Below, in pieces: positions 1,253 through 56,914 of a DNA stretch of 64,000 nt. Within the stretch, counting starts at the first letter, position 1. Each line of letters starts with the position of its first letter. The position numbers and the translations under genes are program-made. The notes beneath the pieces are model-generated. The model did not search any database, was not told where the DNA came from, and saw only the letters and a program-made list of their open reading frames with translations. Location of the stretch: assembly GCF_035918095.1 (NCBI RefSeq), contig NZ_CP109137.1, positions 5,892,001-5,956,000 on the forward strand, read 5' to 3'. The stretch is from Streptomyces sp. NBC_01750. Its GTDB lineage: Bacteria > Actinomycetota > Actinomycetes > Streptomycetales > Streptomycetaceae.

Positions 1253-1270
1253 TTGTCCCCCTGGGGACAA
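1253..1270. promoter_or_regulatory. perfect 8-2-8 palindrome in the mycoredoxin-uvrD2 intergenic region
   Basis: The arms TTGTCCCC and GGGGACAA are separated by CT. The site sits 40 bases before the uvrD2 GTG and about 20 bases upstream of the SigR-type promoter of the divergent gene. It does not match the actinobacterial LexA box. It could be an operator for uvrD2; the binder is unknown. Confidence 0.4.
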
Positions 1271-1309
1271 CGGCCGCACCCATCTCCGCCGACCTGGCAG
1301 CATGGCGGT

Positions 1310-3484
1310 GTGACAGCAGCAACGCACTCCTCTCTTTTCCCACAGGTCCCCGATTCGGCGGACGCGGTGCTCGACGGGCTCGACCCCGAGCAGCGCGAGG
1401 TCGCGACGGCTCTGCACGGGCCGGTGTGCGTGCTGGCAGGCGCCGGCACGGGCAAGACACGTGCGATCACCCACCGCATCGCGTACGGCGTCCGCGCGGG
1501 GATACTCCAGCCCGCCAGCGTGCTGGCCGTCACCTTCACCAACCGCGCCGCCGGCGAGATGCGTGGGCGGCTGCGGCAGCTCGGCGCGGGCGGCGTCCAG
1601 GCGCGCACGTTCCACTCCGCCGCCCTGCGCCAGCTGCAGTACTTCTGGCCGAAAGTCGTCGGCGGCGAGCTGCCCAGGCTCCTCGAGCGCAAGATCCAGC
1701 TGGTCGCCGAGGCCGCTGCCCGCTGCCGCATCCGGCTCGACCGCAATGAGCTGCGCGACGTCACGAGCGAGATCGAGTGGGCCAAGGTCACCCAGACCGT
1801 GCCGGCCGACTATCCGGCCGCGGTCGCCAAGTCGCACCGCGACGCCCCGCGCGATCCGGCCGAGATCAGCCAGGTCTACGGGATGTACGAGCAGCTCAAG
1901 CGCGACCGCTCGGTGATCGACTTCGAGGATGTGCTGCTGCTCACGGTCGGTATCCTCCAGGACCGGCACGACATCGCCGACCAGATCCGCCGGCAGTACC
2001 ACCACTTCGTGGTGGACGAGTACCAGGACGTCAGCCCGCTCCAGCAGCGGCTTCTCGACCTGTGGCTCGGCGACCGCGACAGCCTCTGCGTCGTCGGCGA
2101 CGCCAGCCAGACGATCTACTCGTTCACCGGCGCCACCCCCGACCACCTGCTGAACTTCCGCACCCGCCACCCCGACGCGACCATGGTCAAGCTGGTCCGC
2201 GACTACCGCTCCACGCCCCAGGTCGTCCATCTGGCCAACGGTCTGCTCAGCCAGGCCCGCGGCCGGGCTGCAGAACACCGCCTCGAACTGATCTCGCAAC
2301 GCGAGGCCGGCCCCGAGCCCGCCTACACGGAGTACGCGGACGAGCCGGCCGAGGCCGAGGGCATCGCCCGCCGTATCCGCGACCTCATCGCCGCAGGCGT
2401 CCCGGCCGGCGAGATCGCCGTGCTCTACCGGATCAACGCCCAGTCGGAGGTCTACGAGCAGGCGCTGGCCGATGCCGGAGTGCCCTACCAGCTGCGCGGT
2501 GCCGAGCGCTTCTTCGACCGGCCCGAGGTACGGGAAGCGGGCGTGGCCCTGCGCGGTGCCGCCCGCGCCGGTGGCAACGACTCGCTGCTCGACGATGCCG
2601 AGGACCTGCCCGCTCAGGTCAGGGCAGTGCTCTCCACCAAGGGCTGGACCACCGAGCCACCCGCCGGATCGGGAGCGGTGCGCGACCGCTGGGAGTCCCT
2701 GGCGGCGCTGGTCCGCCTCGCCGAGGACTATGTACGGGTCAAGCCGGAGGCGACCCTCGCCGATCTGGTGGCCGAGCTGGACGAGCGCGCCGCCGCCCAG
2801 CACGCCCCCACCGTCCAGGGAGTCACTCTCGCCTCGCTCCACTCGGCGAAGGGCCTGGAGTGGGACGCCGTGTTCCTGGTCGGTCTGACCGAGGGCATGA
2901 TGCCCATCACCTACGCGAAGACGGACGAGCAGGTCGAGGAGGAGCGCCGGCTGCTCTATGTCGGCGTCACCCGCGCCCGTCTCCACCTCTCCCTGTCCTG
3001 GGCGCTCTCCCGCTCGCCCGGCGGCCGCGCCTCCCGCCGCCCCACCCGGTTCCTGAACGGGATGCGTCCCGGCTCGGCAGCCCCCGGCGCCCGGGCCGCG
3101 GGCGGTGCCGGCGGCATCGACCGCGGCAGCGGCGGCAGGCGCAAGCGGCGCGGGCCCGTCCTGTGCCGCGTCTGCGGCAAGACGCTCACCGACGCGGGCG
3201 AGATGAAACTGATGCGCTGCGAGGACTGCCCCTCCGACATGGACGAGGCACTGTACGAGCGCTTGCGCGAGTGGCGCTCTGAGCAGGCGAAGGAGCTGGG
3301 CCAGCCCGCGTACTGCGTGTTCACCGACAAGACGCTGATGGCGATCGCCGAGGCCGTGCCGGGGAGTGAGGGCGAGTTGGCCGGGATCTCCGGGGTCGGC
3401 GGCCGCAAGCTCGAGCGCTTCGGAGTTGATGTGCTGACGATCTGCGCAGGTCAGGAGGTTGGGGGAGAGGACGAGGAGGACTGA
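1310..3484 (+). CDS. uvrD2: ATP-dependent DNA helicase UvrD2 (SF1A)
   Basis: A 724-residue 3'-5' DNA helicase. It shows Walker A GAGTGKT at about residues 44-50, Walker B/motif II DEYQDVSPLQ, motif III GDASQTIYSF, motif IV/V residues near LASLHSAKGLEWD, and motif VI VGVTRAR. The C-terminus carries a four-cysteine zinc module (CRVCGKTL, then CEDC) and an HRDC domain beginning near PAYCVFTDKTLMAIAE. This architecture is typical of actinobacterial UvrD2 and not of UvrD1 or PcrA. I chose GTG 1310 because upstream codons are low-complexity and overlap a palindrome. Its stop lies only about 24 bases before the -35 of the promoter that drives the wblC leader. Confidence 0.93.
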   Translation: MTAATHSSLFPQVPDSADAVLDGLDPEQREVATALHGPVCVLAGAGTGKTRAITHRIAYGVRAGILQPASVLAVTFTNRAAGEMRGRLRQLGAGGVQARTFHSAALRQLQYFWPKVVGGELPRLLERKIQLVAEAAARCRIRLDRNELRDVTSEIEWAKVTQTVPADYPAAVAKSHRDAPRDPAEISQVYGMYEQLKRDRSVIDFEDVLLLTVGILQDRHDIADQIRRQYHHFVVDEYQDVSPLQQRLLDLWLGDRDSLCVVGDASQTIYSFTGATPDHLLNFRTRHPDATMVKLVRDYRSTPQVVHLANGLLSQARGRAAEHRLELISQREAGPEPAYTEYADEPAEAEGIARRIRDLIAAGVPAGEIAVLYRINAQSEVYEQALADAGVPYQLRGAERFFDRPEVREAGVALRGAARAGGNDSLLDDAEDLPAQVRAVLSTKGWTTEPPAGSGAVRDRWESLAALVRLAEDYVRVKPEATLADLVAELDERAAAQHAPTVQGVTLASLHSAKGLEWDAVFLVGLTEGMMPITYAKTDEQVEEERRLLYVGVTRARLHLSLSWALSRSPGGRASRRPTRFLNGMRPGSAAPGARAAGGAGGIDRGSGGRRKRRGPVLCRVCGKTLTDAGEMKLMRCEDCPSDMDEALYERLREWRSEQAKELGQPAYCVFTDKTLMAIAEAVPGSEGELAGISGVGGRKLERFGVDVLTICAGQEVGGEDEED

Positions 3485-3496
3485 TACAAACTCGTC

Positions 3497-3537
3497 GAAA
3501 AAATAGTTTGCGCCCGCCCCAGCAATCCCCATAGGTT
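3497..3537 (+). promoter_or_regulatory. WblC/WhiB7-type autoregulated promoter
   Basis: An A/T-rich tract (GAAAAAATAG, 3497-3506) lies directly upstream of a -35-like TTGCGC (3508-3513). An 18-base spacer follows, then a -10-like TAGGTT (3532-3537). An AT-rich element abutting a housekeeping -35 is the known signature of WhiB7/WblC-activated promoters, where the AT-hook of WhiB7 contacts the minor groove. In this G+C-rich genome the tract stands out. The promoter would start a leader of about 620 bases before wblC. Confidence 0.65.
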
Positions 3538-3649
3538 CTTAACCACGGGAACGGCGGCTTCTCTGAAGCCCTGTCCCCGTGCTGTACTTATCCGAATACG
3601 CGCGATCGGCCCCGGCCGGTCCTCTAGACGCCGAGAGGAGGCGATTCCA

Positions 3650-3991
3650 GTGATCAGCATCAAGACGAGCTTCGTCAGCACCGCCAAAATGACCGATCGC
3701 TCGGTCGTCTCCGCCTGCTCGCTCGGCTTCTCCGCGGCGTTCAACGGCACCGGTGTGTCCGGCATTTCGGCCGCACTTCCTGTGTCCCGTCTGGGCGGTC
3801 TCCCCGTCCTGGAGCGCAATGAGCGACCGACCAAGGCACTGGAAGCAGGAGTAGCAGCGGCAAAGGCTCGGGCCTATGCCTTTGCGGCAGCCAGTGCCGA
3901 AACCCAGAAGCAGACGACGCAGCACCAGACGACGCAGCACCACACGATGTGGGCCTTCCGCGGGCTCGAACCCTGGAGTGATCCAGCCTGA
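3650..3991 (+). CDS. leader ORF upstream of wblC (113 codons)
   Basis: A GTG start preceded by AGGAGG (3636-3641) at 8-base spacing opens a 113-codon frame in the wblC leader. The first half has coding-like GC3. The end contains a tandem 15-base repeat encoding QTTQH twice (3911-3940), then the tail MWAFRGLEPWSDPA. The stop is only 24 bases before the stem of an intrinsic terminator. In mycobacterial whiB7, and reportedly in streptomycete wblC, an upstream ORF couples ribosome stalling to read-through of a leader terminator. This ORF is positioned for that role. The peptide matches no family I recognise, has no clear membrane segment, and may matter only for its translation. A shorter uORF starting at ATG 3947 is an alternative. 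Confidence 0.6.
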   Translation: MISIKTSFVSTAKMTDRSVVSACSLGFSAAFNGTGVSGISAALPVSRLGGLPVLERNERPTKALEAGVAAAKARAYAFAAASAETQKQTTQHQTTQHHTMWAFRGLEPWSDPA

Positions 3992-4015
3992 TCCAGAATC
4001 AGGCCGGCGCCTTCA

Positions 4016-4057
4016 GGGCCGCGGAACCCCACCCGGGATCCGCGGCCCTTCTGTTTT
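4016..4057 (+). terminator. intrinsic terminator/attenuator in the wblC leader
   Basis: A perfect 10-base stem (4016-4025 with 4039-4048), G+C-rich, with a 13-base loop, followed by TTCTGTTTT. It lies between the leader ORF and the wblC start, about 108 bases before the GTG, so it would stop transcription before wblC unless overcome. An alternative hairpin at 3987-4003 (CCTGA...TCAGG) overlaps the leader ORF stop and could act in switching. Confidence 0.75.
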
Positions 4058-4164
4058 CCCGAAAGCGGGACGACAGGGCGAAGGGGCCTCGGGACAAGAA
4101 GCACCCGGTACCAGCCGCCACCCGGCCAACAGGCCGGAACGACCAGACGAGGAACGACACCACC

Positions 4165-4542
4165 GTGCAACTCGAAGCGCACGCCCCGTCCGTACCGCCT
4201 TCCGAGACGATCCTCCCGCCCGCCCTCACTGAGGACACCACCTTGACTCCGCTCACTCCGCTCACCGCGCTCTCCGCGCTCGACGACGCCATCGAGGCCC
4301 TCGGCGCACCCGTCCCCTGCCGTTCTTACGACCCGGAGGTCTTCTTCGCCGAGTCGCCGGCCGATGTCGAGTACGCCAAGTCCCTCTGCCGTACCTGCCC
4401 GCTGATGGAGGCCTGCCTCGCGGGCGCCAAGGAGCGGCGTGAGCCGTGGGGCGTCTGGGGCGGCGAGCTCTTCGTCCAGGGCGTCGTCGTCGCCCGCAAG
4501 CGGCCGCGTGGTCGCCCGCGCAAGAACCCGGTTGCGGCATGA
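4165..4542 (+). CDS. wblC: WhiB-family transcription factor WblC (WhiB7 orthologue)
   Basis: An iron-sulfur-cluster transcription factor that binds the principal sigma factor and activates intrinsic antibiotic-resistance genes. The 125-residue product shows the four cluster cysteines (one in PVPCRSYD, then LCRTCPLMEAC), the GVWGG turn, and a C-terminal AT-hook RGRPRK that is diagnostic of the WhiB7/WblC branch. The GTG start has a GAGGAA Shine-Dalgarno sequence. An AT-rich-plus--35 promoter upstream suggests autoregulation, and the leader contains an ORF plus intrinsic terminator. Its stop overlaps the ATG of the next ORF (ATGA), implying translational coupling. Confidence 0.93.
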   Translation: MQLEAHAPSVPPSETILPPALTEDTTLTPLTPLTALSALDDAIEALGAPVPCRSYDPEVFFAESPADVEYAKSLCRTCPLMEACLAGAKERREPWGVWGGELFVQGVVVARKRPRGRPRKNPVAA

Positions 4543-4862
4543 ACGCCATCGGAACCATCGACCGTCCCGTCACGCACGATCCCCAGAAGCTGGCCCCAAT
4601 GACCTCTTCCACGAGCGAGCCGTCAGGCTCCGCCACTCCAGCCGTCACCATCATCGGCGCGAACGCCTCGCGTCAGAACAGGACCCGTGAGATGCAACTC
4701 ATCCCAGAAGCCATGGCGCGTGCGCATATGCACGAACGCCTGCGGGAGGCCGACGCGGAACGCCAGGCCGTTCGCCTGATCGCCGCCCGGCGGATGCAGC
4801 GCCGCGCCGAGCGTGCGTCGCTGCGCGCCCGCCGCGCACTGGCCATGGCCGTCATGCACTGA
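4539..4862 (+). CDS. hypothetical basic protein downstream of wblC
   Basis: A 107-residue protein whose ATG overlaps the wblC stop codon by four bases, so it is probably translated from the same message. The N-terminal half is Ser/Thr/Pro-rich. From about residue 48 it is a highly charged, Arg- and Ala-rich helical stretch (HERLREADAERQ, then RRMQRRAERASLRARR). No domain is recognised. An internal ATG at 4599 is an alternative start. Antibiotic-inducible expression with wblC is inferred from the overlap only. Confidence 0.65.
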   Translation: MNAIGTIDRPVTHDPQKLAPMTSSTSEPSGSATPAVTIIGANASRQNRTREMQLIPEAMARAHMHERLREADAERQAVRLIAARRMQRRAERASLRARRALAMAVMH

Positions 4863-21137: not shown

Positions 21138-21211
21138 CGCGGGGTGGAGCAGCTCGGTAGCTCGCTGGGCTCATAACCCAGAGGTCGCAGGTTCAAATCC
21201 TGTCCCCGCTA
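21138..21211 (+). tRNA. initiator tRNA-fMet (anticodon CAT), copy 1
   Basis: A 74-base cloverleaf. The acceptor 5' strand CGCGGGG faces CCCCGCT, leaving an unpaired C1-U72 end as in initiator tRNAs. Three consecutive G-C pairs flank the anticodon loop (GGGCTCATAACCC), the other initiator hallmark. The anticodon CAT is at 21172-21174 and the T-loop is GGTTCAAATCC. The 3' CCA is not encoded. An identical copy lies at 23579. An 18-base terminator follows. Confidence 0.96.
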
Positions 21212-23578: not shown

Positions 23579-23652
23579 CGCGGGGTGGAGCAGCTCGGTA
23601 GCTCGCTGGGCTCATAACCCAGAGGTCGCAGGTTCAAATCCTGTCCCCGCTA
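23579..23652 (+). tRNA. initiator tRNA-fMet (anticodon CAT), copy 2
   Basis: Identical in all 74 bases to the copy at 21138, with the same unpaired first acceptor position and the triple G-C anticodon stem. The 3' CCA is not encoded. The surrounding identity extends to 81 bases (23576-23656). A distinct terminator follows. Confidence 0.96.
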
Positions 23653-56656: not shown

Positions 56657-56914
56657 TCAGGCGCTGGCGTTACGCGCCCGGTTGCGAGCGGCACGGCGCT
56701 TCATAGCGCGACGCTCGTCCTCGCTGAGACCACCCCAGACGCCTGAGTCCTGGCCAGACTCGAGCGCCCACTGCAGACACTGCTCCATGACGGGGCAGCG
56801 ACGGCAGACGGCCTTGGCTTCCTCGATCTGCAGCAGCGCAGGACCAGTGTTGCCGATGGGGAAGAAGAGCTCGGGGTCTTCCTCGCGGCAAACGGCGTTG
56901 TGACGCCAGTCCAT
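56657..56914 (-). CDS. wblE: WhiB-family protein WblE
   Basis: An 85-residue iron-sulfur WhiB protein. Cluster cysteines: Cys9 in NAVCREE, then VCRRCPVMEQC. The GVWGG turn and a basic C-terminus (MKRRAARNRARNASA) complete the family pattern. Sequence and length resemble WhiB1, an essential nitric-oxide-sensitive regulator in mycobacteria. ATG 56914 is clear. The 320 bases upstream (56915-57232) hold its promoter region and no gene I can support. Confidence 0.93.
   Translation of the reverse strand: MDWRHNAVCREEDPELFFPIGNTGPALLQIEEAKAVCRRCPVMEQCLQWALESGQDSGVWGGLSEDERRAMKRRAARNRARNASA

Follow-up and report, generated by a model that had tools for sequence, protein, structure and literature searches.

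The interval at positions 3485-4165 of the window (i.e., the whole 64,000-nucleotide stretch of Streptomyces sp. NBC_01750 DNA analysed here, part of a genome of 8.98 Mb) precedes a gene of the WhiB family and includes an upstream open reading frame (uORF) of 113 codons, raising the question of what the sequence of this uORF is constrained to do. The original prediction held that the sequence of the encoded peptide, and not only its length, may set the response to antibiotics. The interval was confirmed to be the leader of wblC/whiB7, with a promoter, a uORF, a stop hairpin and a terminator.

From left to right, a UvrD-type helicase gene (1253-3484) is followed by the promoter, the leader with its uORF, the terminator and wblC/whiB7. 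When WblC served as query against its own genome, 4165-4542 was by far the top match among nine WhiB-like places, and RGRPRK, which we take to be AT-hook-like, was seen by eye close to the end of the protein, the gene 3' of the leader being of the WhiB7 type. The features considered are the following:

3497-3537, + strand: predicted WblC-type autoregulatory promoter, from the sequence, conservation in 96 Streptomyces and the published pattern
3545-3580, + strand: predicted hairpin at the transcript 5' end (ACGGG...CCCGU), from folding and partial conservation
3633-3641, + strand: Shine-Dalgarno sequence of the uORF, GAGAGGAGG, from the sequence, a block nearly invariant among Streptomyces leaders
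3650-3991, + strand: uORF with a GTG start, 113 codons, all 20 amino acids and a TGA stop at 3989-3991
3949-3963, + strand: predicted 5' arm of antiterminator helix P2 (codons 100-105), from folding and covariation
3971-3980, + strand: predicted 5' arm of antiterminator helix P1 (codons 108-111), from folding and a swap test
3986-4004, + strand: hairpin holding the uORF stop, within the antiterminator (7 bp, 3986-3992/3998-4004)
4010-4018, + strand: predicted 3' arm of helix P1, overlapping the terminator base, from folding and a swap test
4015-4057, + strand: intrinsic terminator stem-loop and T-rich tract, from folds
4019-4032, + strand: predicted 3' arm of helix P2, overlapping the terminator 5' arm, from folding and covariation
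4165-4542, + strand: wblC/whiB7, with a WhiB domain (Pfam PF02467, E 9.6e-15)

A small ORF (4539-4862, + strand, 107 aa) starts at the wblC stop, the two overlapping as ATGA in 74 and as GTGA in 6 of 80 loci, and was present in 80/80 Streptomyces loci at 67-89% identity. As such, it is probably co-translated with wblC. The longer frame that contains it (4446-4862) matched no Pfam family at E 0.001.

In Streptomyces coelicolor and mycobacteria, wblC/whiB7 is reported to be under the control of a uORF attenuator (Lee, Lee and Roe 2022; Burian and Thompson 2018). Attenuation of this gene via a translated leader ORF is already in print, according to the available parts of PMC10727445, PMC7157823 and PMC11550727, and the mechanism is, therefore, not new. 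The resemblance to translation-dependent attenuation at whiB7 seen in the original prediction was borne out, given how the parts of that system are present here. Indeed, the S. coelicolor and mycobacterial systems, insofar as the available text describes them, involve the same gene, a uORF, a terminator and an antiterminator overlapping both, with many drugs and starvation acting as inducers. Induction by drugs and by amino acid starvation is described in the accessible portions of PMC11550727, PMC12121999, PMC10727445 and PMC13393426, and alanine starvation is named as an inducer in mycobacteria in titles and citing papers. In its available part, a 2025 paper states that antibiotic stalling of ribosomes within the whiB7 uORF had not yet been tested (PMC12121999). 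By contrast, the available parts of the published descriptions mention neither how many amino acids the uORF covers nor that its body drifts; no statement on coverage was found in the literature searched, itself available in part, such that an earlier remark is possible. The attenuator is thus known, and its amino acid coverage is apparently new as far as seen.

For comparison, 96 Streptomyces leaders were assembled from the window, 80 loci and 15 of the 29 loci L010-L038, with 14 reverse-strand matches being left out. The 80 loci, all from Streptomyces, were the best 80 of 584 relatives and are biased to close WblC; the pN/pS of wblC was measured in 81 loci (the window and L039-L118). A leader alignment (A1) holds 76 of 88 leader fragments, omitting five class-level fragments from one family with a different tail (L201, L203, L205, L214 and L229) and seven others judged to be close to retained rows. 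At the class level, the terminator pattern was recognised in 50/68 loci in a first scan and in 61/68 with a looser pattern. Class uORFs were obtained from 50/68 loci, three of which were dropped as exceeding 144 aa, leaving 47. A repeat set of 59 loci included 10 without the terminator pattern and one without a uORF, leaving 48 uORFs, four of which exceeded 144 aa and were dropped; 44 were used.

Much of the architecture that had been predicted was recovered, and goes beyond what chance would give. The AT-rich tract with the WblC motif (3497-3507) adjoins a -35 element, TTGCGC (3508-3513), followed by an 18-nt spacer and a -10 element, TAGGTT (3532-3537), with transcription predicted to start at 3544-3545. 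The AT-tract/-35 and -10 blocks rank among the best-kept blocks of the 96 Streptomyces leaders. The available part of PMC7157823 gives the WblC promoter pattern as GAAAWY, 3 nt, TKGMNN, 16-19 nt and TANNNT; five of the six motif letters were matched by eye and the spacer fits, such that WblC is predicted to bind here. A generic sigma-70 scan gave no match at this promoter. A hairpin in the 3545-3590 region, at the predicted 5' end of the leader, is followed by a well-kept GTGCTGTACTTA. The GTG-initiated frame with its strong Shine-Dalgarno sequence likewise stood, and is presumably translated. So, too, did the intrinsic terminator, 24 nt 3' of the uORF stop, its stem of 11 bp (4015-4025/4039-4049) plus 3 bp being followed by TCTGTTTT; the 4004-4065 stretch folds at -32.4 kcal/mol (z -3.7). 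A Rho-independent terminator was, accordingly, found between the uORF and wblC, although a simple terminator scan missed it.

The original prediction also included an alternative hairpin overlapping the uORF stop. This hairpin, of 7 bp, is real, yet in the full fold of the leader end (3900-4065) it forms together with the terminator, and so is not the alternative structure; as a candidate for the switch, the stop hairpin was rejected. When the 3' arm of the terminator is absent, as with polymerase just past 4036, the RNA folds into an antiterminator around the stop hairpin that draws on both uORF and terminator sequence. The alternative structure that had been missed is predicted to be this antiterminator, pairing 3949-3980 with 4010-4032. 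Because the 5' arms of P1 and P2 lie in the uORF end, the last 14 codons would form one side of the switch. A small hairpin at 3974-3987 (CUGGA-GNGA-UCCAG), with a GNRA-like loop, would compete with helix P1 in Streptomycetaceae; the loop variants GTGA, GCGA and GAGA were noted by eye and left uncounted.

Support for the antiterminator came from comparison of its arms across loci. The first base of codon 101 and the base following the C run of the terminator 5' arm were read in 178 of 179 Streptomycetaceae loci (L139 missed the pattern; 140 distinct rows), and were found as T-A in 165, C-G in 10, T.G in 2 and A/G in 1, these being counts of loci rather than of events on a tree. In the C-G loci, Arg replaces Trp101. 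Folds of truncated transcripts from 45 class-level loci were more stable than those of shuffled sequences (mean z -3.0; z below -1.65 in 35/45), with paired arm bases lying only slightly above the shuffles (10.0 vs 8.2). As judged from paired bases alone, the modelled antiterminator gives a weak test, which rests on energy. Swapping arms between the 45 loci weakened both P1 and P2, with none of 300 permutations reaching the mean of the loci's own arms and 31/45 loci outperforming their respective swapped means. When each family was represented by a single locus (25), own means were reached in 1/300 permutations for P1 and 5/300 for P2. In L182, L184, L190, L208 and L234, both strands of the stem have changed, and R-G or similar takes the place of W-S in the tail. 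The putative antiterminator thus covaries both within Streptomycetaceae and across families.

The uORF was recognisable in 120/121 genus genomes and, at E 0.01, in 92/121 family genomes, some of the latter being weak or chance matches. The frame is kept in these relatives, as had been asked of the leader ORF in the original prediction; over 250 sampled pairs, gap lengths were multiples of three in 1184/1723 cases inside the ORF, as compared to 172/1169 after and 116/895 before it. At the same time, all 96 Streptomyces peptides are distinct, with lengths of 95-119 aa. Over codons 2-92, the uncorrected pN/pS was 0.91 in the 96 aligned leaders, and differences were spread equally over the three codon positions (0.223, 0.232 and 0.224). 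In the same 81 loci, pN/pS was 0.216 for wblC, 0.09 for its WhiB core and 0.925 for the leader body. Codons 101-113, by comparison, gave a value of 0.30 in the 96 leaders, where the tail MWAFRG(L/P)EPWSDPA is near-invariant. Here, individual codons are also frozen (CCA112 in 96/96, GAT111 in 95/96, GGG105 in 95/96 and GAA107 in 89/96); wblC and the helicase gene make little use of these codons. Together, codon positions, tail codons and gap lengths point to a frame that is kept, a tail that is kept mainly as RNA and a body that drifts.

The uORF had been called unusually long. This applies relative to drug leaders in general, which have shorter ORFs, but not among whiB7 leaders, where 113 codons are ordinary; class-level uORFs have median lengths of 84.5 aa (50/68 loci) and, in the repeat set, 74 aa (48/59 loci). 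The QTTQH repeat that had been pointed out is real, and corresponds to a 15-bp tandem duplication (3911-3940) found in this strain only (1/96 leaders). No in-frame TTA codon was found in any of the 96 Streptomyces leaders, which is uninformative. Outside the two ends, energies were weak throughout a window scan of 40/96 leaders that ran up to the window 3930-4039, pointing to no further conserved structure midway along the uORF. The leader protein also gave weak second matches, many of them broken by one internal stop, which were taken as chance; of eight examined, seven lie over a stretch coding for an Fe-S protein (CIGCGAC, by eye) and the eighth is L261. Rfam returned no family in the three weak second matches that were searched and none over the wblC leader at gathering level.

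These observations bear on two readings that would place the constraint in the protein. Were the leader to encode an arrest peptide, with a specific nascent sequence (the tail or the QTTQH repeat) sensing drugs in the exit tunnel, a near-invariant tail in which replacements are rarer than silent changes is what would be seen, and is seen. The silent sites of that tail are, however, largely frozen on rare codons that are paired in the antiterminator, and the compensatory changes in the RNA alter the peptide, as with Trp101 to Arg or W-S to R-G or similar. Given such pairing in a covarying antiterminator, conservation of the peptide tail appears mainly to reflect constraint on RNA, and selection on the peptide was, for the most part, rejected as the cause of its invariance. 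With a body that stays in frame but drifts (0.91, as compared to 0.22 for wblC) and a repeat unique to one of 96 leaders, an arrest peptide is unsupported and was judged quite improbable; no motif selected as peptide was found in the body, and the tail is largely accounted for by pairing of the RNA. The idea of an antibiotic response set by the peptide sequence is, in its simple form, likewise unsupported, whereas the conservation of the peptide tail across streptomycete leaders, a check proposed with it, holds, mainly at the level of RNA. A conserved leader peptide can, in other words, be conserved RNA. Still more remote is a small protein with a function of its own, regulation being incidental: although the ORF is recognisable across almost the entire genus, its body shows near-neutral pN/pS, its third-position G+C (0.75) falls below that of wblC (0.86) and the helicase gene (0.90) in the window, and its product matches no Pfam family at E 0.001. 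Comparison of the sequences supports a coding constraint of another kind, a tendency of the uORF to include almost all amino acids at least once.

All 20 amino acids were found in 92/96 Streptomyces leaders, as compared to 20.7 leaders expected when bases were shuffled within codon positions, and the remaining four lack Cys only. For the window alone, a count of 20 is not significant, being reached by 29% of base-shuffles, with the body lying at its null (53%). Moreover, wblC itself (122 aa) holds all 20 in 80/80 loci, such that 'all 20' is meaningful only against a null. In a matched control at the 80 loci, the coupled small ORF of similar length held 16.95 kinds and never all 20. Because the Streptomyces leaders are related, the coverage test was extended to other families, considering as body the uORF minus its start and last 14 codons. 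The 47 class-level bodies held a mean of 18.04 kinds, as compared to 16.30 (sd 0.16) for base-shuffles and 16.67 (sd 0.15) for pooled residue shuffles, with 44/47 lying above their own null; one body per family (24) gave 17.54 vs 16.33 (sd 0.21, pooled). No excess was seen in frames +1 (13.00 vs 12.92) and +2 (13.91 vs 14.23) of the class loci or in wblC at these loci (17.15 vs 17.51). The rule, fixed beforehand, was then applied to the 59 further loci, which are related and come mostly from the same families as the first set. The 44 usable bodies held 17.95 kinds vs 16.08 (sd 0.18), with 43/44 above null, while frame +1 (12.16 vs 12.27), wblC (17.25 vs 17.38) and 197 segments of window genes (16.81 vs 16.94) showed no excess and frame +2 showed a deficit (13.20 vs 13.86, z -4.1). 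With one body per alignable cluster (38), the values were 17.61 vs 16.05 (sd 0.19; z 8.0; 36/38 above null). This coverage would be a new and testable property as far as the literature shows, one with good statistical support.

The excess takes the form of absences of rare residues becoming single copies. For 12 rare residues in the 38 clusters, zero copies were seen 90 times vs 133 expected, one copy 196 vs 143 and two or more 170 vs 181. The choice of null decides which residues stand out. Against base-shuffles taken by cluster, an excess was seen for C, F, K, M, Q, W and Y and none for E, H, I and N; with pooled residues as the null, C, F, H, K, M, W and Y were in excess, and E, N and Q were not. 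E and N thus contribute little or nothing against either. Cys23 is absent from six Streptomyces leaders, two having Cys two residues away and four having none, and Cys is also absent from a good part of the class uORFs. Trp in the Streptomyces uORFs occurs only in the tail (0/96 bodies). Across loci, Trp in the body is more common where the tail lacks it (23/32 vs 27/59; Fisher 0.027, relatedness being ignored).

It could be argued that this is a long-uORF attenuator in which only length matters, with coverage a by-product of composition or ancestry. A body pN/pS near 1 fits this account, as do the presence of long uORFs in most families sampled, the sharing of residues within families and the result for the window alone. 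An excess that is seen against real gene segments as well as against shuffles of bases and of pooled residues, and that is kept with a single body per alignable cluster, does not. Tyr76 offers a further case: the four Streptomyces leaders lacking it all have Tyr elsewhere, as compared to 8% otherwise, and yet two of these share Tyr99, one has Tyr shifted by about two residues and one has it at a separate place, making for about three events. On this evidence, an effect of length alone is rather unlikely, albeit to be taken seriously.

Relying on sequence comparison, the leader is probably a ribosome-controlled attenuator of wblC, with a tail constrained as RNA and a body serving as a pan-amino-acid sensor of translation stress. 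When translation is fast, the ribosome would trail RNA polymerase to the uORF stop and cover the codons of the antiterminator 5' side, the terminator would fold and transcription would end before wblC. Were the ribosome held in the uORF body by a drug or a missing charged tRNA, the last codons would be left bare, P1 and P2 would form before the terminator 3' arm is made and polymerase would enter wblC, the product of which would then activate its own promoter. Read-through upon drug treatment or starvation is, accordingly, a prediction for this leader. Outside the tail, the uORF would need to be an open frame of some length, with residues free to drift and nearly every amino acid included at least once. 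In a frame this long that spells nearly all amino acids, translation could be interrupted by any elongation drug, as well as by a shortage of almost any amino acid. We infer that coverage was selected because it widens the range of starvations that induce wblC. With less assurance, but still on balance, we suggest that whiB7 uORFs across Actinomycetes were selected as near-pangrams, i.e., drifting frames that range from a few dozen codons to some 120 and report any failure of aminoacyl-tRNA supply or elongation. A point against the sensor is that Trp in Streptomyces sits only in the tail, so positioned that a ribosome stalled on it would mask some of the antiterminator. If the sensor reading is true, starvation for a given amino acid would be sensed at the uORF codon or codons specifying it, and loss of the single Tyr or Cys codon would blind the switch to that starvation only. 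As wblC/whiB7 controls intrinsic drug tolerance in actinobacteria, coverage may bear on why so many unrelated ribosome drugs, as well as starvation, elicit a response from it.

The leaders ermBL and ermCL are drug-inducible, stalling at defined sites. As in these leaders and toiL (PMC12121999, in its available part), ribosome drugs would disturb translation of the wblC leader and so switch the downstream gene; unlike such defined-site stalling, the wblC uORF offers no conserved peptide motif outside the RNA-constrained tail. Attenuators of the trp/his type, as presented in the available part of PMC1183508, likewise rely on slowing of the ribosome at leader codons to choose between terminator and antiterminator. 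There, however, the regulatory codons are for one amino acid, whereas the wblC uORF includes nearly all 20, with rare ones often appearing once. Ala is more frequent than any other residue in the class bodies (17.0%), but coverage is broad, and the leader does not appear to be a single-amino-acid attenuator.

Elsewhere in the window, a second WhiB-like stretch was found on the - strand (56672-56893), sharing 45% identity with WblC over query residues 51-119. The - strand also includes matches to the Streptomyces small RNA scr5239 (RF02605; 54712-54870) and to a cobalamin riboswitch (RF00174; 44619-44744). On the + strand, two tRNA matches of equal score (21138-21211 and 23579-23652) lie 2.4 kb apart, and possibly reflect a duplication.
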